The position numbers and the translations under genes were made by a program. The notes under the pieces were generated by a model. That model ran no database searches. It was not told the origin of the DNA and saw only the letters and a list, made by a program, of their open reading frames with translations. Shown piece by piece: positions 10,811 through 33,887 of a stretch of 40,264 nt of DNA. This stretch comes from Bacteroidaceae bacterium (GTDB lineage: Bacteria > Bacteroidota > Bacteroidia > Bacteroidales > Bacteroidaceae): assembly GCA_017536765.1 (NCBI GenBank), contig JAFXGV010000039.1:1-40264 (forward strand), given 5' to 3'. How positions within the stretch are numbered: the stretch's first letter is position 1; every line of letters begins with the position of its first letter.

Positions 10811-12160
10811 ATGCACAGAGTTGTAAAAATTTCTAAGGGATTGGATATCAATCTGAAAGGCGCTCCTGTTGCTGAAACAACAACCATCGATGCAGCCAAG
10901 CTTTATGCTTTGATGCCTGCCGATTTCACACGCGTAACTCCCAAAGTGGTAGTTAAGCCCCAGGATGTTGTAAAGGCCGGTGAGCCCTTGTTTGTTGATA
11001 AGAACTGTCCCGAAATACAATTCGTTTCGCCCGTGAGCGGAACAGTTGTAGCGGTTAACCGCGGAGAGAGAAGACGCGTGTTGAGCGTCGTAGTAGAGTC
11101 GGACGGTAAGTTCGAGTCTGTGGAGTACAAGGCAAAGGATGTGCTTTCTCTGTCGGCAGAGGAGGTGAAGGCCGATTTGCTCAAGTCGGGCCTCTTTGCT
11201 TTTATGCGCCAAAGACCATACGATGTTATCGCCACTCCCAGTGATTCACCCCGAGCAATCTTCGTTTCGGCATTCGACTCGAAGCCCCTGGCTGTTGATT
11301 TCGAGGTAGCCCTCAAAGGCAACGAGGACGATTTCCAGATTGGTCTCGATGCGCTTTCGCGCATTGCACCTGTATATCTGGGTGTGAGCGCAAGCCAGAA
11401 GGCTGCTGCGTTGAGCGTTGCCAAGAACGTGACAACCACCATTTTCAAGGGACCTCACCCCGCAGGTAATGTGGGTGTGCAAATCAACCACGTGGCTCCC
11501 GTGAACAAGGGCGAGATTGTTTGGACTATCGGTGCCGAGGAGGTAATCTTCATCGGTCGCCTCTTCAACAAGGGCAAGGTCGATTTCACCCGCACCGTGG
11601 CACTTGCAGGTAGCGAGGTTAAGAACCCCTCATACAGCAAGGTTGTTCTTGGTGCGCAAATAAGCACACTTGTTGCAGGCCGCTTGAAGGATGAGAATCC
11701 CCTGCGCATCATCGATGGCAACGTGCTCACAGGCAAGCCCACCACAGCGGACGGCTTCCTTGGTGCATTCTCTACCGAGGTGACCGTTATCCCCGAGATT
11801 ATGGGCGGCGACGAGGCTTTCGGTTGGATAGCACCCCGTTTCTCTATGTTCAGTACAAGCCGCAGCTACTTCAGCTGGCTTATGCCCAAACGCAGCTACA
11901 CCATCGATGCGCGCATCAAGGGTGGCGAGCGTCATATGATTATGTCAAACGAGTACGACAAGGTGTTCCCTATGGACATCTACCCCGAGTACCTCATCAA
12001 GGCCATCATCACCGGTAACATCGACAAGATGGAGGAACTTGGTATCTACGAGGTGGCTCCCGAGGACTTTGCGCTGTGCGAGTTTGTCGATTCGTCTAAA
12101 CTGGAATTGCAACGCATAGTACGTGAGGGCTTGGACAAGCTCCGTGCCGAAATGTGCTGA
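10811..12160 (+). CDS. nqrA: Na+-translocating NADH:quinone reductase subunit A
   Basis: 449 residues, the normal length. NqrA is the peripheral cytoplasmic subunit of the NQR complex, binds quinone and is related to RnfC. MHRVVKISKGLDINLKGAP, the barrel-sandwich-like VSPVSGTVVAVNRGERRRVLS, and HPAGNVGVQINHVAPVNKGE are family blocks. No TM segments or cysteine clusters are expected or seen. It is first in the six-gene operon, 60 nt before nqrB. The complex couples NADH oxidation to Na+ export and is the main respiratory entry enzyme in many Bacteroidales. Confidence 0.97.
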   Translation: MHRVVKISKGLDINLKGAPVAETTTIDAAKLYALMPADFTRVTPKVVVKPQDVVKAGEPLFVDKNCPEIQFVSPVSGTVVAVNRGERRRVLSVVVESDGKFESVEYKAKDVLSLSAEEVKADLLKSGLFAFMRQRPYDVIATPSDSPRAIFVSAFDSKPLAVDFEVALKGNEDDFQIGLDALSRIAPVYLGVSASQKAAALSVAKNVTTTIFKGPHPAGNVGVQINHVAPVNKGEIVWTIGAEEVIFIGRLFNKGKVDFTRTVALAGSEVKNPSYSKVVLGAQISTLVAGRLKDENPLRIIDGNVLTGKPTTADGFLGAFSTEVTVIPEIMGGDEAFGWIAPRFSMFSTSRSYFSWLMPKRSYTIDARIKGGERHMIMSNEYDKVFPMDIYPEYLIKAIITGNIDKMEELGIYEVAPEDFALCEFVDSSKLELQRIVREGLDKLRAEMC

Positions 12161-12168
12161 TGCCGATA

Positions 12169-12188
12169 GCCACCCCTTGCAGGGTGGT
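12169..12188 (+). promoter_or_regulatory. Stem-loop between nqrA and nqrB
   Basis: CCACCC (12170-12175) pairs with GGGTGG (12182-12187), with a flanking G-T wobble. No T tract follows, so it is unlikely to terminate. It may protect or cut the polycistronic RNA; that is inference. Confidence 0.4.
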
Positions 12189-12220
12189 GCATTTATAAAG
12201 CAAAATAAAAAATATATCAT

Positions 12221-13414
12221 ATGAAATTTTTGAGAAATTATCTGAATAAAATTAAACCCAACTTCGAGGAGGGTGGCAAGCTGCACGCTTTCCGCTCTGT
12301 GTTCGATGGAATGGAAACCTTCCTTTTCGTTCCCAACGACACCTCGAAAAGCGGTGTGAATATTCACGATGCAATAGACAGCAAGCGCATTATGTCGCTC
12401 GTTGTAATTGCCCTTTTGCCCGCGATGTTGTTCGGTATGTACAACCTCGGCTACCAGAATGCTCTTGCAGCAGGTGCCGTAGCCACAACATCTTGCTGGG
12501 AGATGTTCCTCTTCGGCCTTATGGTTATGTTGCCCAAGATTGCGGTAACCTACATCGTAGGTCTGGGAATAGAGTTCATAGTAGCACAGTGGAAGAACGA
12601 AGAGATACACGAGGGCTTCCTCGTGTCGGGTGTACTTATCCCTATGATTGTGCCTGCCGGCTGCCCCCTGTGGGTGTTGGCCGTAGCCACAGCCTTCTCG
12701 GTAATCTTTGCCAAAGAGGTGTTTGGTGGCACAGGTATGAACATTGTGAACGTGGCACTCATTGCCCGTGCATTTATCTTCTTCGCCTATCCCTCTGTAA
12801 TCTCAGGTGAGTCTGTATGGGTAGCTACCGAGTCAATCTTCGGCATCGGTCACGACCTCCCCGACGGCTACACCTGCGCAACTGCACTGCAGTTTGTTAA
12901 CGGTGGTCAGGTGGCTGCCGGTGCCGCAGGTGCAGAGCTCTCGGTGTGCGATATGATTTGCGGCTTTATGCCCGGCTCCATCGGCGAGACAAGCGTTATT
13001 GCAATAGCACTCGGTGCAGCACTCCTCTTGTGGACAGGTGTTGCCAGCTGGAAGGTTATGGTCTCTGTATTCGTTGGTGGTATCGCTATGATACTCCTCT
13101 TCACAGGTCTTATGCCCGAGAATCCCGCTCTGCAGCAGCCTCTCTACACACACCTGTTGCTTGGTGGTTTCTGCTTCGGTGCCGTGTTTATGGCAACCGA
13201 CCCTGTTACAGCAGCCCGCACCGAGACAGGTAAATACATCTATGGCTTCGGCATTGGAGCAATGGCAATCCTCATCCGTGTATTCAACCCCGGTTACCCC
13301 GAGGGTATGATGCTTGCCATCCTGCTTATGAACGTAACCGCTCCCTTCATCGATTACTGCGTGGTTCAGTCAAATGTCAAGGCTCGTGCTAAACGTCTAA
13401 CCAAAAAGAACTAA
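12221..13414 (+). CDS. nqrB: Na+-translocating NADH:quinone reductase subunit B
   Basis: 397 residues, an integral membrane subunit with about ten helices. NqrB carries a covalent FMN and riboflavin and forms the Na+ path and quinone site. The flavinylation motif GSIGETS is present, with Thr257 as the likely phosphoester-linked residue (T236 in the shorter Vibrio protein). Other landmarks are KEVFGGTGMNIVNVAL and FMATDPVTAARTETGKYIYG. Attachment of FMN needs ApbE, which is not in this window. Confidence 0.97.
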   Translation: MKFLRNYLNKIKPNFEEGGKLHAFRSVFDGMETFLFVPNDTSKSGVNIHDAIDSKRIMSLVVIALLPAMLFGMYNLGYQNALAAGAVATTSCWEMFLFGLMVMLPKIAVTYIVGLGIEFIVAQWKNEEIHEGFLVSGVLIPMIVPAGCPLWVLAVATAFSVIFAKEVFGGTGMNIVNVALIARAFIFFAYPSVISGESVWVATESIFGIGHDLPDGYTCATALQFVNGGQVAAGAAGAELSVCDMICGFMPGSIGETSVIAIALGAALLLWTGVASWKVMVSVFVGGIAMILLFTGLMPENPALQQPLYTHLLLGGFCFGAVFMATDPVTAARTETGKYIYGFGIGAMAILIRVFNPGYPEGMMLAILLMNVTAPFIDYCVVQSNVKARAKRLTKKN

Positions 13415-13419
13415 CAGAT

Positions 13420-14307
13420 ATGGCTAAATATGTATGTAAAGTGTGCGGTTACACGCACGAAGGCACAGAGGCACCCTCTGTATGCCCCCTTTGTAAAGCC
13501 CCTGCATCGGAGTTCGAGCTTGTTGGTGGTGGCGAGGCACAGGGCGATGCCAAGAAGGCAAAGAAAGGCTTCAACACAAGCAGCGATGCATACGCTATCA
13601 TCTATGCATCAATCGTGGTTGTCATCGTGGCATTCTTGCTTGCAGGTGTATCATCTATACTTCGTCCTAAACAGGAAGAGAATATCCGCCTCGACAAGAA
13701 AAAGCAGATACTCTCATCGCTCAACATCAAGAACCAGCCCGATGCCGCTGCAACCTATGCAGCCGTTGTTAAGCAGGAGGCTATCATCAACAGCGCCGGC
13801 GAGGTGGTAGCCACCGAGGGCGGTTTCGATGTAGCCAACGACGCAATCAACGACAGCAACCTGCCCATTTACATCTGCGATGTGGATGGCGCTACCAAGT
13901 ATGTTATCCCTATGACCGGTAACGGCCTTTGGGGTGGTATTTGGGGCTATGTGGCAGTGAACAGCGACGGCAACACCATCTATGGCGTATATTTCTCACA
14001 CGCCAGCGAGACTCCCGGTCTTGGTGCCGAGATTGCAGGCGACAAGTTCCAGACACGCTTCCCCGGCAAGCACATCATTGCCGATGGCGCTGTGGCACTC
14101 GGTGTTACCAAGAAGGTAGCCAACGAGGATTGTGAGGTAAATGCCATTTCGGGTGCAACCATCACCTGTAACGGTGTGAACGATATGCTCAAGAACACAA
14201 TGGAGGGCTACAAAGCCTACCTTGTTGCTCTGCAGCAGCCCGCCGCACCTATTGTAGAACCCGCGCCTGCTCCCGCCGAGGAGGCACAAGTAACAGAGGA
14301 GGAATAA
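13420..14307 (+). CDS. nqrC: NQR subunit C with an N-terminal rubredoxin-like domain
   Basis: 295 residues against about 230-260 in the family. Residues 1-35 form a rubredoxin-type knuckle pair, YVCKVCGYTHEG then SVCPLCKAP (C6, C9, C22, C25), like the C-terminal domain of rubrerythrins. A Lys-rich linker (44-50) leads to one membrane helix (about 57-80) and the periplasmic FMN domain. That domain has the SGATIT flavinylation motif (244-249, probable FMN residue T247) and TPGLGAEI. A Pro/Ala/Glu tail ends the protein. The first Met after residue 1 is M165, so the rubredoxin part cannot be skipped by an internal ATG. With the N-terminus inside, the Fe(Cys)4 site would face the cytoplasm. NqrC itself is certain; the role of the extra iron site is unknown. 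Confidence 0.95.
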   Translation: MAKYVCKVCGYTHEGTEAPSVCPLCKAPASEFELVGGGEAQGDAKKAKKGFNTSSDAYAIIYASIVVVIVAFLLAGVSSILRPKQEENIRLDKKKQILSSLNIKNQPDAAATYAAVVKQEAIINSAGEVVATEGGFDVANDAINDSNLPIYICDVDGATKYVIPMTGNGLWGGIWGYVAVNSDGNTIYGVYFSHASETPGLGAEIAGDKFQTRFPGKHIIADGAVALGVTKKVANEDCEVNAISGATITCNGVNDMLKNTMEGYKAYLVALQQPAAPIVEPAPAPAEEAQVTEEE

Positions 14308-14311
14308 TACT

Positions 14312-14938
14312 ATGGCACTATTTTCAAAGAAAAATATGGAGGCACTCAACACGCCTCTGCTCAAAGAGAACCCTGTAACAGTTCAGGTGCTTGGTATCTG
14401 CTCGGCATTGGCTGTTACAAGCAAATTGGCTCCCGCCATCGTAATGGGCCTCTCGGTAACCATCATCGTGGCTATGGCCAACGTAATTATCTCACTTATC
14501 CGCAACACCATCCCTATGCGCATTCGCATCATCATACAGCTGGTGGTTGTGGCTGCCCTTGTAACACTCGTGAGCGAGGTGCTCAAAGCCTTTGCCTATG
14601 ACGTGAGCGTGCAGCTGTCGGTATATGTGGGCCTTATCATCACCAACTGTATCCTTATGGGCCGTCTGGAGGCATTTGCAATGCAGAACAAGCCCTGGGC
14701 CTCGTTCCTCGACGGTATTGGTAACGGTTTGGGATATGCAATGATTCTTGTGGTTGTTGCCATTGTGCGCGAGATTTTCGGTTCGGGTACCTTGCTCGAT
14801 TTCCCCGTAATTCCCCAGTGCGTTTACGAGGCAGGCTACATAAACAACGGTCTTATGCTTATGGCACCTATGGCATTCTTCCTCATTGCCATTGTGATAT
14901 GGGTGCAGCGTGCAAAAGACAAGAGCTTACAAGAGTAA
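14312..14938 (+). CDS. nqrD: Na+-translocating NADH:quinone reductase subunit D
   Basis: 208 residues, six membrane helices with the inverted topology shared with NqrE. The two cysteines that hold the intramembrane iron-sulfur centre, C30 (VLGICSAL) and C113 (ITNCILMGR), match Vibrio C29 and C112. It starts 4 nt after nqrC. Confidence 0.97.
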   Translation: MALFSKKNMEALNTPLLKENPVTVQVLGICSALAVTSKLAPAIVMGLSVTIIVAMANVIISLIRNTIPMRIRIIIQLVVVAALVTLVSEVLKAFAYDVSVQLSVYVGLIITNCILMGRLEAFAMQNKPWASFLDGIGNGLGYAMILVVVAIVREIFGSGTLLDFPVIPQCVYEAGYINNGLMLMAPMAFFLIAIVIWVQRAKDKSLQE

Positions 14939-14962
14939 TAACTTAGATACAGAAGAAAAATT

Positions 14963-15589
14963 ATGGAACATTTTATTAGTTTAATTGTCCGTTCAATCTT
15001 TGTGGACAATATGGTATTTGCCTTCTTCTTGGGTATGTGTTCATATTTGGCTGTATCTAAGAGCGTAAAGACAGCAATAGGTTTGGGTTTCGCTGTTATC
15101 TTCGTAGAGGTAATAACCCTTCCTGTGAACTATCTGTTGCAGACAGCAGTGCTTGCCAACGGTGCACTCATTGAGGGCGTCGATTTGACATTCCTTGCAT
15201 TCATCCTCTTCATTGCCGTTATCGCAGGTATCGTGCAGTTGGTCGAGATGATTGTAGAGCGTTTTGCTCCCGCACTCTATAGCCAGCTTGGTATCTTCCT
15301 TCCCCTTATCGCTGTGAACTGTGCCATTATGGGTGGTTCGCTCTTTATGCAGCAGCGCATAGGTATGGAGGCCAACAACCCCCAGGCAATCCTCAATTTC
15401 TGGGATTCGGTAGCCTACGCCTTAGGTTCGGGTATCGGCTGGATGGTGGCAATCGTGCTCTTCGCAGCAGTTCGTGAGAAAATGGAGTACTGTAACATTC
15501 CCAAGCCCTTGCGTGGTTTAGGTATCGCCTTCATCACCGTAGGTCTTATGGCTATGGCATTTATGTGCTTCTCGGGTATTAAAATGTAA
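14963..15589 (+). CDS. nqrE: Na+-translocating NADH:quinone reductase subunit E
   Basis: 208 residues, six membrane helices. C26 (LGMCSYLA) and C120 ([10 protein letters not shown]) fall at exactly the positions of the Vibrio NqrE cluster ligands, facing those of Nqr[21 protein letters not shown] is a typical start. It follows nqrD by 24 nt. Confidence 0.97.
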
Positions 15590-15603
15590 TAAATGAAAGA
15601 GCT

Positions 15604-16872
15604 ATGGATATACAATTAGTATTAGCAAGTATAGCAGTATTCCTTGTAATCATCCTTCTGTTGGTGATTATCCTGTTGGTGGCGAAGAAATATTTGCTCC
15701 CCTCGGGAAATGTCAAGGTTAAGATTAACGACGAGAACGAGGTAGAGGTTGCAGCCGGCGGTACTCTCCTGGGTACAATGGCCGAGAACGGCATCTTCCT
15801 TCCCTCGGCTTGTGGTGGAAAGGGCTCTTGCGGCCAGTGCAAAGTGCAGGTATTAGAGGGTGGTGGCGAAATCCTCCCCTCGGAGACAGGTCACTTCTCA
15901 CGCAAGGAGCAGCAGGCACACTGGCGTCTGGGTTGCCAGGTGAAGGTTAAGAACGACCTCTCTATCAAGGTGCCCGAGTCTGTAATGGGTGTCAAGGAGT
16001 GGGAGTGCGAGGTTATCTCAAACAAGAACGTTGCAACCTTCATCAAGGAGTTCATCGTGGCTCTTCCTCCTGGGGAGCATATGGACTTTGTGCCCGGTTC
16101 TTATGCACAGATTAAGATTCCTACATACGATATGACCTACGACAAGGATATCGACAAGAGCCTCATAGGCGAGGAGTATCTGCCCGCTTGGGAAAAATTC
16201 GGTTTGCTTGGTCTCAAGTGCAAGAACACCGAGGAGACAATCCGTGCATACTCTATGGCCAACTATCCCGCCGAGGGCGACCGCATTATGCTCACCGTGC
16301 GTATTGCAACACCTCCCTTCAAGGCCGACCGTTCCGGCTTTATGGATGTACCCTGCGGTATAGCATCGTCATACATCTTCACTTTGAAGCCCGGCGACAA
16401 GGTAATAATGAGTGGCCCTTACGGCGATTTCCACCCCATCTTCGACTCAAAGAAAGAGATGATGTGGGTAGGTGGTGGTGCCGGTATGGCTCCTTTGCGT
16501 GCGCAGATTATGCATATGACAAAGACACTGAAGACCACCGACCGCACAATGACCTACTTCTACGGTGCGCGTGCGCTTAACGAGGTATTCTACCTCGAGG
16601 ATTTCCTGCAGTTGGAGAAGGATTTCCCCAACTTCACTTTCCACTTGGCGCTCGACCGTCCCGACCCCGCTGCCGACGCAGCAGGCGTAAAATATACCCC
16701 GGGCTTTGTGCACCAGGTAATCTACGAGACCTACCTCAAAGACCACGAGGCACCCGAGGACATCGAGTACTATATGTGTGGTCCCGGCCCTATGTCAAAG
16801 GCAGTTGTAAATATGCTTGTTGATTTGGGTGTAGAGGAGAAATCTATTATGTACGACAACTTCGGCGCATAA
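15604..16872 (+). CDS. nqrF: NADH:quinone reductase subunit F, the NADH-oxidising subunit
   Basis: 422 residues. One N-terminal anchor helix (about 5-27) is followed by a plant-type 2Fe-2S domain with C70, C76, C79 and C111, the same numbers as in Vibrio NqrF. Next is a ferredoxin-reductase module with the FAD motif RAYSMANYP and the NADH-binding GGGAGMAPLR, then YMCGPGPM. It takes hydride from NADH and passes electrons to the NqrD/E centre. As the last gene of the operon it ends 7 nt before a strong terminator. Confidence 0.98.
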   Translation: MDIQLVLASIAVFLVIILLLVIILLVAKKYLLPSGNVKVKINDENEVEVAAGGTLLGTMAENGIFLPSACGGKGSCGQCKVQVLEGGGEILPSETGHFSRKEQQAHWRLGCQVKVKNDLSIKVPESVMGVKEWECEVISNKNVATFIKEFIVALPPGEHMDFVPGSYAQIKIPTYDMTYDKDIDKSLIGEEYLPAWEKFGLLGLKCKNTEETIRAYSMANYPAEGDRIMLTVRIATPPFKADRSGFMDVPCGIASSYIFTLKPGDKVIMSGPYGDFHPIFDSKKEMMWVGGGAGMAPLRAQIMHMTKTLKTTDRTMTYFYGARALNEVFYLEDFLQLEKDFPNFTFHLALDRPDPAADAAGVKYTPGFVHQVIYETYLKDHEAPEDIEYYMCGPGPMSKAVVNMLVDLGVEEKSIMYDNFGA

Positions 16873-22636: not shown

Positions 22637-23644
22637 TTACTCCCTAAATCTATCTTGCAAAACTTGCATCTTCTCTATAATCTGCTTAAATGTCGGTTTG
22701 TCGGAACCATAAATCATATTCACCAACATTTCTGCATAGTCCTTTTCCCATATGGCAATAATATCCTCGCGAGGAACAAGCATAATTCTCTTGCGAACAT
22801 CAGGCGTGTAGTCCACATCTTTAACAGATGTAAAAATCTCTCTATGGTGCCTGATGTTTTCCCACAACTCATCATCCTTTACAGCTGCTATTGCAAAATC
22901 ATTATCCATCATCAAATAAAGGTCGTACAAATGGCGAGATTTCCTATTCGCGTTAGCGCCCTGCCCTGCAACAGAGAATAACTCGTGTAACAAGAAAACT
23001 TTTTCTAAGAATGTTTTTCCTGCAACTGCAGTCGCAATATCCGAATCAACAACGCTCGTTTGAATAGCTGGAAAGTTCTCTTCTACAAGGCTCTTGACCT
23101 TATTCATTGCATATGGCTCTGACAAGGAGCGAGCACCAATCTCTAACATAACAACAGGCTTCAAGTAGTCCAACTCACCCGGAATTACACTCTTGTATGT
23201 TATCCATATTTTTCTTGGCTCGGGATATGTGTTATCTCCCTCACCATCTTGCTCGGCTTCAATCGTACATAATGCGTATAATCCATATTGCTTAATGGCA
23301 TCGAGCAAAGCATTATAAAATTCTTCGCGAACAAATATTGATGATTCTTTGCGGAGTTTCTTAATTTGTTTCTTCGTCAAATCGCCCCCTAATTCAAGTT
23401 GTGAGCGGTCAATCGCAAGGTCTATATCCTCCGAAAATCTGCTGATATGTTTTCCGACTTTACTCAACGAAGTACCACCTTTGAATATCAGTTTATCCGC
23501 AAAAGGCAGAGTGAAAACTATCTGCAAGATGGTTGTAACCCACAAGTCTTTTTCAATGGCTTGTGCCGGTAAGCCAATGCGTCCTTCTGCTGCTTGTAAT
23601 ACTTGCCTCTGTTCCTCTATAGTAAGTAAAAAGTAGTTATTCAT
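22637..23644 (-). CDS. abiEii: AbiEii-type nucleotidyltransferase toxin
   Basis: 335 residues of the AbiEii/AbiGii family, the toxin half of a type IV toxin-antitoxin pair that in other hosts aborts phage infection. The polymerase-beta-like active site is clear: KGGTSLSKVG (55-64) then RFSEDIDLAI (69-78), with D73 and D75 as metal ligands. Characterised relatives transfer nucleotides, GTP or pyrimidines, to cellular RNA including tRNA. Its ATG overlaps the last 8 bases of the antitoxin gene, so the two are translationally coupled. Codon use is more AT-rich than in neighbouring housekeeping genes, consistent with transfer. Confidence 0.92.
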   Translation of the reverse strand: MNNYFLLTIEEQRQVLQAAEGRIGLPAQAIEKDLWVTTILQIVFTLPFADKLIFKGGTSLSKVGKHISRFSEDIDLAIDRSQLELGGDLTKKQIKKLRKESSIFVREEFYNALLDAIKQYGLYALCTIEAEQDGEGDNTYPEPRKIWITYKSVIPGELDYLKPVVMLEIGARSLSEPYAMNKVKSLVEENFPAIQTSVVDSDIATAVAGKTFLEKVFLLHELFSVAGQGANANRKSRHLYDLYLMMDNDFAIAAVKDDELWENIRHHREIFTSVKDVDYTPDVRKRIMLVPREDIIAIWEKDYAEMLVNMIYGSDKPTFKQIIEKMQVLQDRFRE

Positions 23645-24242
23645 ACGCTTGTTTAATTATGTTTCTAATCCATACAGGCATTAACTTCAAGTCTGCCATA
23701 ACAGACTCTTTTGGCTCGTTTTGCAATAGTTTCTTAATACGCTTTATCTGCCAGTCTTCAATGTGTTCTTTCTTTAATGATTTAAGAGCAAATGTTATGA
23801 GCATTGCCAATCTGCTTTGAAATGCCAAATTTTTGGGTGCTGTATTCTTGAATGTGATGCCCCTGCCATTGGAGATTTCAACGTGCCTCTTTGTACCATC
23901 AGTTAAATAAACATAGTTCATTGGTACTTGAGTAGAAAGACCTAGTACATTCAACGCATAAGCACCTGTCGGAACTATTCGAGCGTGGTCTCGTTTTGCC
24001 ATAGCTTCTGCTATATGTTCAAACGATGGTTGTAATACGCCTAAGCCTAATTTTTCTTCAATCTCTGGATAACAATATATGCCGTGAGCAACCCTTATTA
24101 TCAATCCTTCTTTGCAGAGCCGAGTGAGAGTTTGCCTTACTGCATCAGATGTTCCCAGGTCAATAAAATCATCTGGGAAAAAGATGCTTCCTTTCTTCAA
24201 CGACAAAATTTGTTGCTCTATTTTCGATGCTACGCTGTTCAT
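23637..24242 (-). CDS. abiEi: AbiEi-type antitoxin / transcriptional autorepressor
   Basis: 201 residues from ATG 24242. The frame is open upstream to 24290, but that part covers the operator and -7 box. An N-terminal winged helix (about 1-60) contains FFPDDFIDLGTSDAVRQTL and LIIRVAHGIYCYPE. The C-terminal domain has the MNYVYLTDGTKRHVEI and FKNTAPKN blocks of the AbiEi/DUF6088 group. In the type IV pair the antitoxin does not bind the toxin but counteracts its effect and represses the operon through inverted repeats. A matching inverted repeat lies directly upstream. Confidence 0.88.
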   Translation of the reverse strand: MNSVASKIEQQILSLKKGSIFFPDDFIDLGTSDAVRQTLTRLCKEGLIIRVAHGIYCYPEIEEKLGLGVLQPSFEHIAEAMAKRDHARIVPTGAYALNVLGLSTQVPMNYVYLTDGTKRHVEISNGRGITFKNTAPKNLAFQSRLAMLITFALKSLKKEHIEDWQIKRIKKLLQNEPKESVMADLKLMPVWIRNIIKQAYE

Positions 24243-24254
24243 ACAATCTGTGTT

Positions 24255-24291
24255 TGTCACAAAAATATAGTAAAATTGTGACAATTGCAAA
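24255..24291 (-). promoter_or_regulatory. Promoter and probable operator of the abiE pair
   Basis: On the minus strand TTTG (24288-24291), a 20-nt spacer and TATTTTTG (24260-24267) form the promoter. The inverted repeat TGTCACAA (24255-24262) / TTGTGACA (24276-24283) straddles the -7 box, where a bound repressor would block polymerase. The leader to ATG 24242 is about a dozen bases. Direct repeats of ATTGCAAA follow at 24284 and 24298. Confidence 0.65.
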
Positions 24292-24621: not shown

Positions 24622-24767
24622 AACGATTTATGCATACTATGGCTTTGTGTGCTTGCTCCAATGCCCAATGTGTGCAAAATGATGATTTTTACACCGGGAA
24701 ATAATAAAATAATAATAACTGCTTGCGTGGCGGCATAGTACGTTTGCGCAAAAAAAGAAAAAAGAAA

Positions 24768-27700
24768 ATGAGAAACATTTTTACTCGTTTACTGGTTGTG
24801 TCGCTGCTACTGCTGACGACGGCAACCTTGAGTGCACAAACAATTGAGAATGGTAGAGTTTACCGGTTTGTAACCCCGGGCAATAGCAATCTTGCATTAG
24901 GGTTAAATGATAGTAATCAGCCGTGTGGCGTTACCCAATTAACAGCCGATGACGCCGATTACTACAAGCAGTTGTGGTATGTCGAAGTTGTAGGTGACGT
25001 TTATAGATTGGTAAATCTATCGACTGCTAAGTATCTTGCCGGAAATACAAAGTCCTCAGTCTGGTCTTTGAATGTTGGTGTCGATGCGTGTAATTTTGAA
25101 ATTCATACATCTGGCAACAATGTAACGTTTCGCAGTATAGCACATCAAAGTGTAAATGATGCCGATTATTGCTATATGCACTCTGCGAGTACTCGTGACA
25201 ACTTAATCGTTGGATGGAATAATTCAAGCGCTGCATCTTTGTGGAGCGTAAGTGAAGTGACCATAGACGAAGCAGAACTCAAAACCGCATTAGGCTTTAT
25301 AGCACTTGAGGAGGGCGCCGTATATCGTTTCGAGAATGTAGAGAATACCGGTCGTGCTTTGTGCTCAAATGGTACAAACGATGTCCTTGCAGCTGAAATA
25401 TCTGCCGATGCTTTAACACAGCAATGGCTTGTTACAAAGCAGAATGGCAACTTTGTGTTGCGCAACCTTGTCACCGGTCGCTATCTTTGTGGACATAATA
25501 CAAGGTCGAACAGCTGGACACTTACCGAGGAACCCAACGAGTTTGCTGCTGTTAAAAACTCTTTGAGGCAATATGGGCATAGCGATACCCACGCATTTAT
25601 GCACAAAGACGGTAGCAATAATATCGTTAGCTGGACTGTTGATGGTAGTACAGGCAGCCAATGGACTGCTGTGAGAATAGACTACCCCGCCGAGGATTTG
25701 AAAGCGATTCTCGACGCACACCCCACCGTGGCCGAGGTAGCTGCTTGGGCAACTAATTTCCGTTCTTTCTTTAATGATGATGCTTGTACCACTCCCTTTT
25801 ATGCCACATTGGAATTGGCAAAAGCCGCTGCTGAGTATAGCTTGTTGTCAGCCGATTTGCAAGCGCTTGTTGATGAAATATATACAAAAGTATTAAGTGA
25901 CAACTGGGAAGAGGATAACGCTGTCGATGAAAAAGATTCTTGGGGTAGTGAGTATGCCAAAAAGTTCCGTGTGCAGATGTATGAGCCATATAGTATTGCG
26001 GGCGACATTACATCGTGGTTGGGAATAAACGCACACGCCAATAACGACAACCCCACAGGTATATATATGCCCGAGGCCGGAACTCTTTATGTAATGGTGG
26101 AGGGTACTATAAAAGATGGTGCAAGCCTGCGCATTGTTGATGGCGGGCACAACTTGCGAGTAACCAATGCCACAAGCGGTGGATATGCGCTACAGCCTGG
26201 TTTGAACGTGATAAACTACACCGGAACAGCCGGCCAGCTATATATCTGCTACAATGTAGATACATACAACCCCGACGGAGCAACAACAGCCGAAAAATTC
26301 CCTCATAAACTATCGGAATATCCTCCCTTGAAAATTCACATCGAGGGTGGTGCCATAGCCGGTTACTACAATGCTTGTGGCGACTTCCTTGCAGGCAAAA
26401 CCTACGAGGGCATTAGCTATAACGAAGATTTGTGGAAAACCATTACCGGTGCAAGTGTCGATAACGATGCCGATTGGGAATATATGGAAACACGTGCCAA
26501 TTTGAACGTTATTCCTCTGCTTGCCCATCGTCAGATACTGCTTTTCCATCTGAACGATTACACTCACGAGGATGGTGGTGTAAGCAACGGTATGGCATAC
26601 TATCTGCCTGACCAGCTTAATGTTCCTGCCACTCCATATAATAACACAAAGGATTGGGCCGATTATGGAATGGAATGCCACCCTTCGACAGGTAAAATAA
26701 ACATTATGCTCGAGGCTTGGGACCGCATTATGTATTCCGAGCTTGCAACAATGGGCCTTGTGAGCCAATCGACAATGGCGCAGATGAATAATTTCTATCC
26801 ACGTTGGAAGAGCGACCACACGACTAAGTACGAGATGTACGACTACACAGAAGAATCTCCTATAGATAATAAAACCTATCAAGAGTTCTGTAACGGCTTG
26901 GACTACAGCGAATACTTCAATCACCACGGTGTTGCATTGGGTACCGAAAGTGGTTATATGTATGGTGGCTGGGACCACTGCGGTTATAGCATAACAACAT
27001 ATAACGGCATTGTACGGGATATGGCCAACAGCGCAGGTTCCACTTGGGGGCCTGCCCACGAGATTGGCCACCAGCACCAAGCACCGCTCACATTGAACGG
27101 TCTTACCGAGGTTACCAATAACCTCTTCTCGAACATTGCACTTTGGTACAAGGGTATGTCCACATCGCGTTACAATGGTGACAATGGTTCATTGGAGAGC
27201 GTGCTCAATGCATACAATACCGAGGGTAGCGATATTTACACAAACAATATTTGGGCCCTTACTCATTTGTACTATCGTTTGTGGCTCTACTATCACCTTG
27301 CCGGTAACAACACACAGTTCTGGCCTCGCTTGTACGAACTTTTGCGCCAGCAACCTATGCAAAAGGGCTACAACGTGTCGGGTGATGAATCTACGCTGCA
27401 TTTTTATAAACTTGCCTGCCAGGCTGCGGGCGAGGACCTCACTGAGTTCTTCCGTGCTCACGGTTACTTCTCTATAATGGACGACCGCTTGGTGGGCGAC
27501 TATAGCAACTCGGTATACGAGGTTTCGCAAGAGATGATAGACGAGGCTATTGCCGAGGTAAAAGAGATGGGCTACGAAGAGAACCTTGCCATCCTTTTTA
27601 TTAACGATGACGACGAAACTGCCAAATATGTTCAACACGATGGAACAACAGCGCGAGAGATTTATGGCGAAACCACTCCTGACTCCGACTTTGGCTCTGT

Positions 27701-30700
27701 TTCCGACTTTATCAACGGCAATGTATCTGTTGAAACAACCTACACAGCCACACTTAATAGCGATGGTACACTTACTATGAGTGGTGGTGAAGGTGGTGTT
27801 GGTTTCCTTGTGCTCAATGAAGATCGCGAAATTGTTTCATTCAGCAATAAATCTACCTTCGCAATATCCGACGAGGCTGCATACCTGCTTGCCACAGGCA
27901 AGGCTTCTGTAGTTGCAGTAGATACAGAAAGCACCACCACCGAGGCCGAGGTTGATGTAACCGCAATGCGTTTTGCACTATTGCAGGAACTTATTGAGAA
28001 TGCAATAGCTCTCACCCAGAATACCAGTGAGAGTCGCGTGGGCTTCTACAAGCCATCGGCAGTAACAAATTTGCAAGGATATGTGACAACGGCGCAGGGG
28101 GTTATCGCCAACGGCGACCTTGCCAACTTGCAGGCTGTTTACGAGTTGCTCTATGCCGAGTATAACGCAGTTGTTGCCAATGAGTACTCGCGCGTAACAT
28201 TTGTTCCCGGCAGCAAGTATGCAATTATAAACGTAAAGAGCAACGACCGTATCTTGACATACTCCGATTCTAATGTAACTACGGTTTCCGGCGATGCCGA
28301 TGACTATAGCTCTACCGATGCTAATCAATGGTACATAGAAAGAGATGGAGCCTACTATATAAAGAATGCCGGAACAAGTAAATACATACAAGATGTAACC
28401 GACCAAAACGGAGTACTATACACAGTGGGCGACAATAAGGTTAATATGAACATAAACGAGGTTGCGCTTGGCTGTTATACAATAGCCACTTCCAACGTGC
28501 CGGGTAGGTATATGAATATGGATGGTTCAAATGCGGCAAGTATTATAACTTGGGGCGATGCTTATAGCGAAAACTCACAGTGGCAATTCATTCTTTTGGA
28601 GGCTGATGACACAAATACAGCCAAGGAGGAACTCCTTGAGTTGTCAAAGAAAACGCTTGCCCTTGTAAACGAGGTAGCCACAGTAAGCTATAACGAAGGT
28701 AGCAAAATATCATTGCAATCGTCAAGCTCAACAGCCGCCAACTATATATGGTCGAACGCGGCAGTGTCGGGCAACGATGTGGATAAACTCATCGACGGCA
28801 ATAAAGGCACCTACTTCCACTCGCAATGGAACAATTCAACAGCTCCCGCCGATGGTTGGGGCCACCACATAAGCGTGGATTTGGGTACAAGCAGCACACT
28901 CACATCCTTCAAGTTCAAATTTACCACTCGTAACGCAAGCGGCCTATCAAACTACCCCAAAACCATAGAGGTTTATGGTAGCAACGTAGGTGGCGACGAT
29001 GTTGCCAATTACACAAGACTGCAAGTGGCATCGGGCTTTGCAACAGGTGCAGGTGTAGATAATGAGGCCGTTGTTATGGGCAACGGCACTGCCTACCGCT
29101 ACTTGCGTTTCCTTGTGACAGATGCCACCGGCAGCAATGGCGGCACTAACACCGGTAGCGATGGTATGGTGTTCTTCCATATGTCGGAGTTCTCTATCTA
29201 TCCCGTTACGGTATCGGCCACAGTGAAGAGCGATTACACATCGAGTGTAACCGAAGCTGCCGTGCTGGCTGCATACAACGATGCCGAGCAGGGCAAGACG
29301 GTATATAACAACACCGAAGCAACGCTTAATGACATAAATGCAAAGAAAACAGCACTTGGCGATGGTACTGCTGTCGGTTCATACACCACATTGCTTACAC
29401 AATACAACAATGTGCTGAGCAGCGTGCTCAATGCAAAGAAAGAGGAATTGCTAACATTGATAGGTGAAACAAATGATTTGATAAGTACGGTAGGTTCGGT
29501 CACTATTAATCCGCCTACTGAAAATGAGTTGTTGTTGCAGGTCGATAATGCAAGTGCTTCTTATTATCTTTCGACGAACTCGCAAGAGAGTGGTGTAAAT
29601 AGAAATATTAAGAATTTGTTAGACGGTGTAACCAATGAAGCAGATGATTATTTCCACACCAATTGGCAGACATCTGTGGGTGCCGATCATCACCTGTTGC
29701 TCGATATGGGAGATGGCAAATCTTTAGGTACATTTACTTTCGAATATACAACCCGCAATAATAGTGCAGGTATCGATGCTCCCACTTCAATTGTGGTTGA
29801 GGGTAGCAACGACAACTCTTCGTTTACTACAATTGCAACATTGACGGGCTTGCCCACAGGTCAGCACAAGACATATACATCGGAAACACTTGGTACAAAC
29901 CAGAACAAGTATCGTTATGTACGCTTTAGAGTGACCGGTGGAGCAGGCAATGTAGGTGGTTATTATTATTTTGCAATGTCGGAGTTCGACGTCACAGAAG
30001 TGACTGAAACAGAGATTACGGTTACAAATAACAGTTCTGTTGTAGAAGATGATTTGTTGATTGATACTTATCTTGCAACAACAAAATCTCAGAAGTTGCA
30101 CGATGCCGCAACAACGGTTGCCTTGCTCGATGCTGCAATAGCCGACCTTCAGGTTGCATACGACAAACTGGATGAGGCGATAAACAACACCACGGCCCTC
30201 AAAGAGTCTCTTCTTGAACTTATCAATGATACACAAGCATTGTATGATGAAATGGCTGCCGATGGTGGCACTGTAAACGACTATTACAGTACATCGGCAC
30301 TCACCGATGAGAATCTTTCCGCGGCTTCGACCGAGATAGCAGAAGCAACAGTGGTTTGCAATAACCCATCGGCTACGGTAAATGATATCAGCACTGCATA
30401 TAATGAACTTAATGAGGTATATACTATATTGGAAGGTATAAAAGCAAACGACTATTCGGGCAGCAGAGAGATAATAGGCACTGAAATTACAAATGCCGCA
30501 ACCTTGCTTGCCGAGGTTATGACTGCGGCAGAAACCCCCGGTGATGTACCCTTGCAGGCGAGTGCTGCTACCGCTCCTTATTATATATGGAGTAATAAAC
30601 CGGCCGACGATAGTAACGGAATTGAAGGAGGTCTCATAGATAAGAACGATGACGGAACAGCCAAGACAAACACATTCTTTGGAACAAACTGGAGAAATGG

Positions 30701-33700
30701 CAACGTAGAGCCATATACTCACTATCTGGAGGTGGATTTAGGCAGTGTTAAGTCTATAAAGGAGCTTCTCTTTAACTATACTACACGTGATTCTTATGCC
30801 AACCAGCGCCCCAACGGAATAAAGGTGCTTGCAAGCAACGATAAGAAGATTTATAAAGAGGTGTTCTCGGTTACAGATGGTCTCCCCACAGGTGGCACTG
30901 AAAAATGGGAATTGGAAGAACCTTTGAATTTTGTTGGTCGTTATATCCGTTTTGCTGTATCGACCGAGGTCGGATATTTCAATATGGCCGATTTTAATCT
31001 AAGCATTGCGGAAACATACACGCTTGACGAGTTCTATACAACGTCGGACATAGATGCATCACTCATTGCAGCGTTGAACGTTGCAGTGCAGCAGGCGTCT
31101 GCGGCCAAGGATTGCTTTGTCCTCGAAGATGACTACAACACTGCACTTGCCAACTTGCAAAATGCATACAATGCTCTTAATGCTTTCAAGAATGCACACG
31201 TTGCAGATGTAAACGACCTCGAAGAGCTTGCCACTACTACAGATGGCCTTGTGACCGAGATTGCAACCTTTACCGAAGAAGAAAAGGAGATTACAATGCA
31301 GTGTACCGATGAGAATAACCCATACTACCTCTATTGCAATGCCGATGGTACAGCAACAAATGGCAACGGTGATAATGTGGGTGTTGCTGCGCTGGTAGGT
31401 GATAATGCTACCAATGATACTCACTTGCACACTACATATGGTAGCAATGCACAGGACGATGACCTTGACCACTATTTGCGTCTCGATATGGGTGAGAAAG
31501 AAGCTATGGTGTCGTTTAAGTTCAGATATAGAGGCCGTGTCAATAATAACAGCAATGCTCCCAAAACTATGGTTATCGAGGGCTCCAACGACCTTAATAA
31601 TTTTGAGGAGATAGCAACGCTTACCGACTTGCCTGTAGGTGATGCAACCGTGACATATACAACACCCACTGCACTTGGCAACGGAAAGGCATATCGTTAC
31701 ATTCGCTTTATGGTTACTGCAACCAATAACGGCGCTGCAAATAACGGGCACCCCTTCTTTGTGCTGAGCCAATTTGCAGTTACAGCCTGCAAGACAATAA
31801 AGGTGAGTGACGGCTATGTGTCGCCCAACCTCCCATTGACAACACTTGTTACAGCCAATAACGAAATGGTAGAGGCCAATGCCATTGTGGACGATACCGA
31901 GCATTATTTGACAGAAACTGCATACAATGCTGCAATCGACGAATTGCAGGCTGCATATAACCAACTGCTCGAGGCAAAAGGGCTTGTGAATCTCCCTGTG
32001 AGATTGACAACTGATGCTGCAAATCCCGTATTGTATAACATATATATAAATCGCGGTAACAACAACGAACTGACAAAAGCACTTGCCTATGATGTATTAT
32101 CATCTGCTATGGTGGCTGTTGAAGATTTCACATTGGGTAGAAAGGCGCAAGGCTGGTATTTTATGAAGGGTACTGATGCCGACAGTGCCGAGGATATTTT
32201 GATATTCCCCTATTGGAATAGCGATGCTGCCAACACTACATTGCGTTTGGCTTCTAATGATATATCTTCCGGCAATAGCAAGGTGAAGGCTGTTGATGGC
32301 AGCGATGATGCTTACAAGCAGAATTGGTACATTACCTTTGTTGAAGGCCAAACAGAAACCGGATGGTCGAACTTGCAGATTCAAGACAACACCACCCTCT
32401 ATTTCAGTAATCACGGCGGTGTGTCAAAAAAGATGGGCTTCCACGACTCTGCAAGTTACGGCGGTTCAGAGTTCAAATTCGTACTTGCCGATTTCAGCAG
32501 GTCTGAGGCGTACTATCAGTTGTATAATCTGTATGCCGATTGTGGAGAGGCCAAGGTTAGTGGTACTGCAATAGGTTGCTACACCGAAAGTTCTGTTGAG
32601 GCATATAACAATGCATATAATGTAGCCGCAGATAAACTTGCTAAAGTTGAAGCTGAAGATGATGAGTATAACGAAGCCCGTATCGCTCTCGAAGAGGCTT
32701 ATAATGCGCTTACACGCAATATGCCCGTTAAAGATGGTTTTTACAAGATACGTTCTGCATTCAAAACCGAAGCCAGTGCCGATGGCTATAGCTACGATGG
32801 AGTTGTTTATGCCGATGATAAAAATGATGTTTATTGGGCAAAAGACTACGACAATACATCGGCCCGTGCAATATGGTACATTGAGCCGGTGAGCGGTGGC
32901 TATAATATAAAGAATATGCACACAGGTTGTAGTTTTACTACACTTGGTTGGGGAGGACACTCAACCCTCTCTACCACCCCCGCTACATTTACCATAGATG
33001 TACTTGATGATGCAACAGGTATTTTGAAACTTATTGCCGGCCAGCCAATGCACGCACAGGAATCAGGAAATAAAATTGTAGGTTATCCGGGTGGCTTAAA
33101 TTCTGCATCTGCTTGGGTAATAGAGGAGGTTGCAATAGATGATGTTGTTGCGAATGTTAAGTACTCCGTCACACTTGGAAACAACACCGTGGGCGAGGCA
33201 ACAGCATATTCATCGCTCTGCCTGGGTTATCCCGTGACTTTGCCTGCAGAGAGCGAAAGTGATGTTAAGGCATATATAGCAACAGATGTGAATGAAGATA
33301 ATGTAATTAATCTCGAACTTGTTGGCGGTGATGGTAAAACAATACCGGCAAATACTCCTGTTATTTTGAAGAGCGACGGCGGTGTAACATCGGTTGAAGC
33401 ATCTTACTCGGTCGATGCTGTTGCTACAGTTGATGGAGCAGACAACTTGTTGCATGGCTCGAATTATACAACATACATTAAGTGTCTCGCCGATGATGGC
33501 ATTAATAATGTATATAATGTATATATGCTCACAAGAAAGAACGGCATAATGGCTATGCGTTGGATGTACGAGAACTATCAGTATGTCGATGGCGTGTATT
33601 CAAAACATCCAAATGCTTCGAGCGATGAAGGCGGTTATGTTCAGTGCCCTGCAAACAAGGCCTATCTGAAGTTTGACGAAACTGCAACAAGCAACCTCTC

Positions 33701-33887
33701 AACCGAGTATTACTTTGGCTTCTTCGGTGGCACTACCGATATTGACAAAGTCAATACAGGGGAGGAGAACCCCTTGAACGGTACGGTTTACGACTTGCAA
33801 GGTCGCAAGATTGAAGAGGTTACTGTTCCGGGCTTCTACATAGTGAATGGTAAAAAGATGTATATTGGCTCTGAGTTGTTGAAGTAA
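24768..33887 (+). CDS. Giant secreted M60-like (mucinase-type) metallopeptidase with F5/8C and ricin-like modules
   Basis: 3039 residues from ATG 24768; the in-frame TTG at 24723 would add 15 basic residues before the signal peptide. The signal peptide is about 1-23 (RLLVVSLLLLTTATLSAQ). Two ricin-like beta-trefoils (about 24-170, 186-330) precede the peptidase, whose HEIGH zinc motif is at 764-768 and third ligand probably E781. This is the gluzincin HExxH...E of M60/enhancin proteases that cleave mucin-type O-glycoproteins. A third trefoil follows (about 1140-1280), then four F5/8C (CBM32-like) domains at about 1311-1479, 1587-1744, 1926-2081 and 2174-2341, joined by helical linkers. Two more lectin-like regions are at about 2410-2560 and 2650-2787. 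A C-terminal tail with VYDLQGRKI and FYIVNGKKMYI resembles sorting tails of Bacteroidales surface proteins. It likely degrades host mucins. Confidence 0.9.
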   Translation: MRNIFTRLLVVSLLLLTTATLSAQTIENGRVYRFVTPGNSNLALGLNDSNQPCGVTQLTADDADYYKQLWYVEVVGDVYRLVNLSTAKYLAGNTKSSVWSLNVGVDACNFEIHTSGNNVTFRSIAHQSVNDADYCYMHSASTRDNLIVGWNNSSAASLWSVSEVTIDEAELKTALGFIALEEGAVYRFENVENTGRALCSNGTNDVLAAEISADALTQQWLVTKQNGNFVLRNLVTGRYLCGHNTRSNSWTLTEEPNEFAAVKNSLRQYGHSDTHAFMHKDGSNNIVSWTVDGSTGSQWTAVRIDYPAEDLKAILDAHPTVAEVAAWATNFRSFFNDDACTTPFYATLELAKAAAEYSLLSADLQALVDEIYTKVLSDNWEEDNAVDEKDSWGSEYAKKFRVQMYEPYSIAGDITSWLGINAHANNDNPTGIYMPEAGTLYVMVEGTIKDGASLRIVDGGHNLRVTNATSGGYALQPGLNVINYTGTAGQLYICYNVDTYNPDGATTAEKFPHKLSEYPPLKIHIEGGAIAGYYNACGDFLAGKTYEGISYNEDLWKTITGASVDNDADWEYMETRANLNVIPLLAHRQILLFHLNDYTHEDGGVSNGMAYYLPDQLNVPATPYNNTKDWADYGMECHPSTGKINIMLEAWDRIMYSELATMGLVSQSTMAQMNNFYPRWKSDHTTKYEMYDYTEESPIDNKTYQEFCNGLDYSEYFNHHGVALGTESGYMYGGWDHCGYSITTYNGIVRDMANSAGSTWGPAHEIGHQHQAPLTLNGLTEVTNNLFSNIALWYKGMSTSRYNGDNGSLESVLNAYNTEGSDIYTNNIWALTHLYYRLWLYYHLAGNNTQFWPRLYELLRQQPMQKGYNVSGDESTLHFYKLACQAAGEDLTEFFRAHGYFSIMDDRLVGDYSNSVYEVSQEMIDEAIAEVKEMGYEENLAILFINDDDETAKYVQHDGTTAREIYGETTPDSDFGSVSDFINGNVSVETTYTATLNSDGTLTMSGGEGGVGFLVLNEDREIVSFSNKSTFAISDEAAYLLATGKASVVAVDTESTTTEAEVDVTAMRFALLQELIENAIALTQNTSESRVGFYKPSAVTNLQGYVTTAQGVIANGDLANLQAVYELLYAEYNAVVANEYSRVTFVPGSKYAIINVKSNDRILTYSDSNVTTVSGDADDYSSTDANQWYIERDGAYYIKNAGTSKYIQDVTDQNGVLYTVGDNKVNMNINEVALGCYTIATSNVPGRYMNMDGSNAASIITWGDAYSENSQWQFILLEADDTNTAKEELLELSKKTLALVNEVATVSYNEGSKISLQSSSSTAANYIWSNAAVSGNDVDKLIDGNKGTYFHSQWNNSTAPADGWGHHISVDLGTSSTLTSFKFKFTTRNASGLSNYPKTIEVYGSNVGGDDVANYTRLQVASGFATGAGVDNEAVVMGNGTAYRYLRFLVTDATGSNGGTNTGSDGMVFFHMSEFSIYPVTVSATVKSDYTSSVTEAAVLAAYNDAEQGKTVYNNTEATLNDINAKKTALGDGTAVGSYTTLLTQYNNVLSSVLNAKKEELLTLIGETNDLISTVGSVTINPPTENELLLQVDNASASYYLSTNSQESGVNRNIKNLLDGVTNEADDYFHTNWQTSVGADHHLLLDMGDGKSLGTFTFEYTTRNNSAGIDAPTSIVVEGSNDNSSFTTIATLTGLPTGQHKTYTSETLGTNQNKYRYVRFRVTGGAGNVGGYYYFAMSEFDVTEVTETEITVTNNSSVVEDDLLIDTYLATTKSQKLHDAATTVALLDAAIADLQVAYDKLDEAINNTTALKESLLELINDTQALYDEMAADGGTVNDYYSTSALTDENLSAASTEIAEATVVCNNPSATVNDISTAYNELNEVYTILEGIKANDYSGSREIIGTEITNAATLLAEVMTAAETPGDVPLQASAATAPYYIWSNKPADDSNGIEGGLIDKNDDGTAKTNTFFGTNWRNGNVEPYTHYLEVDLGSVKSIKELLFNYTTRDSYANQRPNGIKVLASNDKKIYKEVFSVTDGLPTGGTEKWELEEPLNFVGRYIRFAVSTEVGYFNMADFNLSIAETYTLDEFYTTSDIDASLIAALNVAVQQASAAKDCFVLEDDYNTALANLQNAYNALNAFKNAHVADVNDLEELATTTDGLVTEIATFTEEEKEITMQCTDENNPYYLYCNADGTATNGNGDNVGVAALVGDNATNDTHLHTTYGSNAQDDDLDHYLRLDMGEKEAMVSFKFRYRGRVNNNSNAPKTMVIEGSNDLNNFEEIATLTDLPVGDATVTYTTPTALGNGKAYRYIRFMVTATNNGAANNGHPFFVLSQFAVTACKTIKVSDGYVSPNLPLTTLVTANNEMVEANAIVDDTEHYLTETAYNAAIDELQAAYNQLLEAKGLVNLPVRLTTDAANPVLYNIYINRGNNNELTKALAYDVLSSAMVAVEDFTLGRKAQGWYFMKGTDADSAEDILIFPYWNSDAANTTLRLASNDISSGNSKVKAVDGSDDAYKQNWYITFVEGQTETGWSNLQIQDNTTLYFSNHGGVSKKMGFHDSASYGGSEFKFVLADFSRSEAYYQLYNLYADCGEAKVSGTAIGCYTESSVEAYNNAYNVAADKLAKVEAEDDEYNEARIALEEAYNALTRNMPVKDGFYKIRSAFKTEASADGYSYDGVVYADDKNDVYWAKDYDNTSARAIWYIEPVSGGYNIKNMHTGCSFTTLGWGGHSTLSTTPATFTIDVLDDATGILKLIAGQPMHAQESGNKIVGYPGGLNSASAWVIEEVAIDDVVANVKYSVTLGNNTVGEATAYSSLCLGYPVTLPAESESDVKAYIATDVNEDNVINLELVGGDGKTIPANTPVILKSDGGVTSVEASYSVDAVATVDGADNLLHGSNYTTYIKCLADDGINNVYNVYMLTRKNGIMAMRWMYENYQYVDGVYSKHPNASSDEGGYVQCPANKAYLKFDETATSNLSTEYYFGFFGGTTDIDKVNTGEENPLNGTVYDLQGRKIEEVTVPGFYIVNGKKMYIGSELLK

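Follow-up and report, generated by a model that had tools for sequence, protein, structure and literature searches.

A rubredoxin-like N-terminal domain under purifying selection on the NqrC subunit of NQR in sampled Bacteroidales

The NQR complex of gut Bacteroidales is an NADH-oxidising sodium pump, through which electrons are described as following one unbranched path to the quinone. The NqrC subunits of Vibrio cholerae and Prevotella bryantii have a single helix, a periplasmic FMN domain, a threonine flavin site and the usual partner subunits, and the NqrC protein studied here is like them in all these respects. It differs in carrying an additional N-terminal domain (below called the head): the P. 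bryantii protein, at 210 aa, is too short for one (PMC6560451), and alignments of the V. cholerae NqrC chains to our protein cover only its helix and FMN regions. RnfB of RNF, which belongs to the same pump superfamily, likewise has a variable cytoplasmic redox domain (PMC12174285), but that domain carries a ferredoxin-type cluster and sits on a subunit other than NqrC. The nearest parallels to the head itself are the short rubredoxin (Rd) domains, in which two CxxC pairs lie about 12 residues apart (PMC7482061). The Rd domain of reverse rubrerythrins shares with the head its N-terminal position, its two CxxC pairs and its short spacer, but it precedes a diiron domain in the same chain, whereas the NqrC head is followed by a membrane helix and then the FMN domain. 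Rd domains of the short type also sit on flavoenzymes in FdpF and the Rd-fused butyryl-CoA reductase, where they move electrons toward O2 reduction (PMC7482061, PMC12288474), and Rd domains that form part of flavodiiron proteins or of a butyryl-CoA reductase act in the service of oxygen reductases (PMC12288474); unlike NQR, FdpF and the Rd-fused butyryl-CoA reductase are not membrane ion pumps.

The window (the whole stretch of DNA analysed, 40,264 nucleotides of a Bacteroidaceae bacterium contig) contains a complete nqrABCDEF operon, in that order, at 10811-16872, with the following features:

10811..12160, + strand: nqrA, identified by curated family models
12221..13414, + strand: nqrB, identified by curated family models
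13420..14307, + strand: nqrC with N-terminal rubredoxin-like domain, 295 aa, an open ORF
13429..13518, + strand: rubredoxin-like domain RUBY_RBDX of NqrC, residues 4-33, with Cys 6, 9, 22 and 25 and a 12-residue spacer
13525..13584, + strand: NqrC linker, residues 36-55, with pLDDT below 50 at 38-52 and KKAKKG ahead of the helix
13594..13650, + strand: NqrC membrane helix core, residues 59-77, the sole hydrophobic helix (56-100 in the AlphaFold model)
13924..14202, + strand: FMN-binding domain, residues 169-261 (PF04205 FMN_bind), periplasmic by homology
14149..14166, + strand: SGATIT, residues 244-249, the predicted covalent FMN site
14236..14304, + strand: Pro/Glu-rich, fast-evolving C-terminal tail of NqrC, residues 273-295
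14312..14938, + strand: nqrD, identified by curated family models, Cys 30 and 113 kept
14963..15589, + strand: nqrE, identified by curated family models, Cys 26 and 120 kept
15604..16872, + strand: nqrF, with 2Fe-2S Cys 70, 76, 79 and 111 and FAD and NAD domains

The cofactor ligands checked were SGATIT of NqrC, whose covalent-FMN role is based on Thr225 of V. cholerae NqrC (PMC10739449), and the cluster cysteines of NqrD, NqrE and NqrF, with the NqrB flavin sites left out; all of those checked are intact, and the head is thus an addition to the pump rather than part of a degraded one. Elsewhere in the window, a 3054-aa ORF at 24723-33887 (+ strand) combines a Peptidase_M60 domain with several copies of the F5/8 type C domain and matches a ricin-type lectin; its product may be a large surface protease that acts on glycans or mucins. 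An AbiEii-type nucleotidyltransferase gene (22637-23644, within 22637-24290 on the - strand) overlaps a 217-aa ORF that lies upstream in the same direction, with which it may form a type IV toxin-antitoxin pair.

An initial annotation of this DNA had proposed that a rubredoxin-like domain, opened by two CxxC knuckles, is fused to an NqrC protein with a single membrane helix and an SGATIT-bearing FMN domain, and each of these elements is present at the positions listed above. Pfam model PF21349 matches residues 4-33 with an E-value of 2.6e-14 and 52.8 bits (cut-off 26.5), a match that by its E-value is far beyond chance, and the TIGR01938 nqrC model scores the same protein at 196.7 bits against a curated cut-off of 144; the flavin-site motif, the helix ahead of the FMN domain and the position of the gene between nqrB and nqrD also fit its identity as NqrC. 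The protein is neither a classical rubredoxin (its spacer is 12 residues rather than about 30, and no classical rubredoxin family was found in the Pfam search at E 0.01) nor a rubrerythrin (no diiron domain was found in the same search at the same threshold, whereas the reverse rubrerythrin of this genome has one). In an AlphaFold model built from a 24-row alignment (PF21349 matches 7 of its 24 members, fused and unfused together, at E 0.01) residues 1-30 have a mean pLDDT of 90-93 and residues 38-52 fall below 50. A Foldseek search with this model finds NqrC structures and, over 36-39 columns and with weak E-values (0.034 for 1b71), rubrerythrins. By sequence, the best solved relative of residues 81-269 is 3lwx, the NqrC of Parabacteroides distasonis, and that of residues 3-36 is the C-terminal domain of the rubrerythrins 1ryt and 1b71.

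The reading frame leaves little room for a shorter protein. The ORF starts with an ATG 5 bases 3′ of the nqrB stop, and the next methionine is residue 165, in agreement with the earlier remark that no ATG lies between residues 1 and 165. GTG or TTG codons occur at residues 8, 66, 70, 73, 129 and 155; translation begun at 66-73, inside the helix, or at 129 or 155, past it, would yield a protein with a truncated membrane anchor or none. A frameshift or stop between residues 35 and 55, named at the outset as an observation that would speak against the fusion, was seen in none of the 70 distinct fused sequences described below, each of which is one open frame, and we rejected an artefact or frameshift on the ground that the open fusion is common to all 70. 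The linker had also been called Lys-rich, which is true of the window protein but not in general, as the net charge is positive in only 42 of the 70 linkers.

The annotation had suggested searching NqrC homologues for the domain and mapping its taxonomic spread, and this search found the head in 70 of 137 distinct NqrC proteins and in four coded families. Fused and unfused loci were chosen on purpose rather than sampled at random, so this fraction gives no prevalence. Fused status was assigned by a pattern that requires the cysteines, one Gly and, behind the third Cys, either Pro or Glu, and that allows a spacer of 12-14 residues. Although the pattern allowed this range, all 70 heads have C2C-12-C2C spacing; although it accepted Pro or Glu, the residue after the third Cys is Pro in every head; and a Pro three residues ahead of the third Cys, outside the demands of the pattern, is invariant. 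No CxxC occurs in the first 60 residues of any of the 67 headless NqrC proteins. Some NqrC proteins are long (L046, L051, L052, L054, L057, L161, L163 and L166, with whole-protein lengths of 349-437 aa); L057 is long without having a head.

In wider genome searches, in which a fusion was marked by a match starting at residue 1-3 of the window NqrC used as query, three related assemblies (G014, G031 and G036) have the same architecture at 96%, 96% and 84% identity. In the sample of the window's family 262 of 301 genomes match and at least 73 rows are fused among the matches listed, and in-frame stops interrupt the match in two of these. The order sample gave matches in 317 of 393 genomes, at least seven of them fused among the matches listed (that of the window and six others, from coded families f19, f42 and f105), and in the phylum sample 55 of 395 match (all rows listed), of which two are fused, both from Bacteroidales. 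Fused NqrC thus occurs in at least four coded families in the samples searched; phyla beyond Bacteroidota were covered only through a plasmid collection and a pattern scan of genome contigs. The named records with fused NqrC are Bacteroidaceae and other Bacteroidales metagenome-assembled genomes (MAGs), a Paludibacteraceae MAG (L050) and one MAG labelled Clostridium. The fused nqrC of this last MAG (L036, named Clostridium sp.) groups on the tree (below) with the window's family f1, and the MAG is probably mislabelled or a mixed bin. The head is therefore frequent in the sampled Bacteroidales and not special to the window genome.

In the plasmid collection 881 records match; coverage of the query reaches 80% or more in a single one, a P. 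distasonis strain record (NZ_OY725779.1, L206) in which the gene is annotated simply as nqrC and the protein, WP_005856889.1, has the head. This nqr operon lies on a 375-kb non-mobilizable record labelled as a plasmid, which may be a piece of chromosome. WP_005856889.1 has the same architecture as the window protein, head included, at 43.6% identity. The crystallised 3LWX chain corresponds to its residues 73-270 with one difference, so the head lies outside the solved chain, and it appears in no structure that we found. The source strain of 3LWX is P. distasonis ATCC 8503 (PMC4767422), which differs from the strain of WP_005856889.1, and we infer the head in ATCC 8503. The word rubredoxin is missing from the main texts of PMC4767422 and of another paper that uses 3LWX. 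The initial remark that the head is undescribed agrees with the open-access literature searched, in which the one paper that names both NqrC and rubredoxin treats them separately; the fusion is not described in the retrieved portions of PMC10739449, PMC6560451, PMC12174285, PMC8516057, PMC10643135, PMC5210497, PMC12288474, PMC7482061, PMC4348036, PMC4767422 or PMC5924567.

Substitution rates were compared along the protein in three groups, one of which is the window's clade. There the dN/dS values are 0.039 for the head, 0.293 for the linker, 0.080 for the helix plus FMN part and 0.418 for the tail. In the other two groups they are 0.084 and 0.089 for the head, 0.119 and 0.064 for the helix plus FMN part, and 0.545 and 0.562 for the tail. 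Because the linkers of these two groups are saturated (raw pN/pS of 0.160 and 0.374, versus 0.241 and 0.157 for helix plus FMN), the contrast shown by the linker comes from one group, the window's clade, and one group runs in the opposite direction, with a linker pN/pS of 0.160 below the 0.241 of the FMN part at saturated synonymous sites. The head is a selected part of NqrC, under purifying selection comparable to that on the FMN domain. NqrC tails evolve fast in the window's genus.

The history of the head was examined on a tree of 133 NqrC cores from which head and linker had been removed (69 fused and 64 unfused; four short or truncated rows, L028, L071, L170 and L180, were left out). The fused label requires 15 changes on this tree, at least 10 of which are forced by starred branches, compared to a mean of 44.7 for shuffled labels. 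A single clade of fused NqrC was rejected with a p-AU of 1e-48, on a quick tree and for a group named after the tree had been inspected. The head has thus been gained or lost many times, and the tree does not separate gain from loss. Close relatives differ in its presence: L050 is fused and L058 unfused, and L141, L144 and L145 are fused and L169 unfused. L169 shares the opening MATKK with these last three and then resumes at the helix, which looks like an in-frame loss of the head.

As to its source, all 70 heads are closer to the Rd domain of reverse rubrerythrins than to that of classical rubrerythrins, in a comparison whose reverse rubrerythrins were mostly found with a pattern from the window protein; when the window genome's own two rubrerythrins were the sole references, all 70 were again of the reverse type. 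The window head and the reverse rubrerythrin of the same genome are 58% identical over 36 residues. When gapless identity was compared with that to 31 reverse rubrerythrins, NqrC rows at or above 86% identity being left out, the nearest relative was another NqrC head for 68 of the 70, with one tie and one head nearer to a reverse rubrerythrin. This argues that the capture is old, and the same count does not support the idea that genomes captured the head anew, time after time, each from its own reverse rubrerythrin. The simplest reading of these sequences would be that the head was captured long ago and was later lost many times and perhaps also transferred.

The initial annotation had suggested that the head might let the pump exchange electrons with a soluble partner, naming rubrerythrin, ferredoxin and peroxide or oxygen defence; for a link to rubrerythrin, genome content gives weak evidence. 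Possible partners of the head are present in the window genome, which encodes two rubredoxins, a classical rubrerythrin and a reverse rubrerythrin; the gene of the last (L002, 990-2049 of G000:C7) lies immediately 3′ of that of a FUR-family regulator. The window proteins scanned include none recognised as serving peroxide defence. Gene content was compared between 39 fused and 41 unfused genomes. Reverse rubrerythrin occurs in 36 of the 39 versus 30 of the 41 (Fisher p 0.038, within-genus permutation p 0.055), a weak association that is open to MAG incompleteness. Cytochrome bd has no association with the head in this comparison (19/39 versus 26/41, p 0.26); within genus g33 it is present in 5 of 5 fused versus 0 of 4 unfused genomes. 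The Rbx_binding model PF18113 has no match in 31 genomes, and among 14 controls it matches only Escherichia coli, so the lack of matches is no sign that these genomes are without an NADH:rubredoxin reductase.

Five genomes, G024, G028, G020, G002 and G012, encode rubrerythrins of some 220 aa that carry Rd domains at both termini (L182-L186). The first four of these genomes belong to the window's genus and have a headless NqrC, and G012 has no NqrC match among the matches listed. In the 80 other genomes compared, such double-Rd rubrerythrins occur in 0 of 39 fused versus 4 of 41 unfused genomes (Fisher p 0.12), the sequences of two of these four, G169 and G083, having been inspected, and an N-terminal Rd is absent from nine other long-frame rubrerythrin rows, five of them from fused genomes. 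A trade-off between the head and double-Rd rubrerythrin is suggestive at most. In G169, whose NqrC has no head, a single chain (L246, G169:C5:77900-79500, - strand) joins flavin reductase, Rd, rubrerythrin and second Rd domains; this order of flavoenzyme, Rd and rubrerythrin would, by analogy, be the one proposed below for NQR across separate proteins.

What might the head do? Fe(Cys)4 sites usually have a higher potential than the NqrF centres and menaquinone, so that an exit of electrons through such a site is favoured over an entry. In NqrC the helix is N-terminal and the FMN domain periplasmic (PMC10643135, PMC12174285), and with one helix this topology would place the head in the cytoplasm, as the initial annotation had supposed. 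The ferredoxin domain of NqrF docks at the NqrD/E side, and the position of the NqrC helix changes in the course of the redox cycle (PMC10643135). Reverse rubrerythrins of Clostridioides difficile reduce O2 and H2O2 with NADH electrons in vitro, where the electrons were supplied by an oxidoreductase plus the Rd domain of the E. coli flavorubredoxin (PMC7482061). From this electron route, the partner genes in the genome and the order of domains in the G169 chain, we infer an exit of electrons from NqrF to partners of the rubrerythrin type, with iron as the presumed metal of the head. We tentatively propose, as a reading that falls somewhat short of an even chance, that a cytoplasmic Fe(Cys)4 site accepts electrons from NqrF for delivery to soluble partners, rubrerythrins among them. 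In this view, a module of the one-iron Fe(Cys)4 type, kin to that of reverse rubrerythrins, would have been added to the cytoplasmic end of the NqrC helix of a canonical Na+-NQR, and the linker would hold it near the membrane on the side at which NqrF brings its ferredoxin domain to NqrD/E. There it could take single electrons from the FAD or 2Fe-2S centre of NqrF and hand them on, with rubrerythrins or the two small rubredoxins of the cell as the likeliest soluble acceptors, and NQR would gain a second, non-pumping electron exit under oxygen or peroxide or when menaquinone is over-reduced. A more far-reaching version, which we regard as doubtful, would make the NQR of many gut Bacteroidales a branch point at which the NqrC head, on the cytoplasmic side, draws NADH electrons from NqrF to rubrerythrins; the pump would then also be a membrane-bound rubrerythrin reductase that couples energy conservation to O2 and peroxide removal.

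The distance from the end of the domain to the helix core (11-33 residues, median 19.5, in 70 linkers) bears on a second explanation, in which the head, rather than passing electrons to a soluble partner, controls electron entry or the switching of NqrC by binding to the ferredoxin domain of NqrF or to the cytoplasmic face of NqrD/E, and might serve as a redox sensor that falls apart under oxygen. With 11 residues, the shortest linkers would hold the head at the membrane; depending on the redox state of the NqrD/E cluster, the NqrC helix tilts by 12 degrees and is displaced by about 4 Å in the direction of the cytoplasm (PMC10643135); and many gains or losses would suit a tuning module. However, the domain is of an electron-transfer class, and its kept redox-type site exceeds what docking needs; such a gating role is possible, but we think it rather unlikely.

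A CxxC-CxxC knuckle can bind zinc as well, and Cys4 knuckles commonly do. The head could thus be a structural zinc ribbon or an assembly element with a part in insertion, flavinylation or the loading of the NqrD/E cluster. Behind CG, 9 of the 70 heads have Gln or Lys, and the stretch that follows is altered too; the other 61 have the rubredoxin-type Tyr there, and the models that match the head are rubrerythrin Rd models. Moreover, 67 of the 137 NqrC proteins have no head, so NQR can be built without one. We consider this quite unlikely.

An electron entry port, through which reduced soluble carriers would feed NQR by way of the head, is opposed by Fe(Cys)4 potentials, which are usually too high for reduction of the clusters of NqrF or NqrD/E or of menaquinone. 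Such a port would be in keeping with the descent of NQR from the ferredoxin-using RNF, whose RnfB has a variable C-terminal cytoplasmic domain (PMC12174285), but NqrF is complete with its NADH domain, and an entry port appears very unlikely. Finally, a neutral or artefactual fusion, which the many gains or losses and the dispensability implied by the absence of the head from many relatives might suggest, is hardly credible given the purifying selection, the constant Cys spacing across families, and its occurrence in many separate assemblies and an annotated isolate record.

A selected rubredoxin-type head on NqrC that has been gained or lost repeatedly suggests that NQR has a second redox function. 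The FMN domain of P. distasonis NqrC was crystallised without the head, though the annotated protein of a strain of this species has one. If electrons do leave NqrF by the route proposed above, the NqrC head would be a concrete and directly testable candidate for the electron donor of rubrerythrins in the anaerobic gut Bacteroidales.
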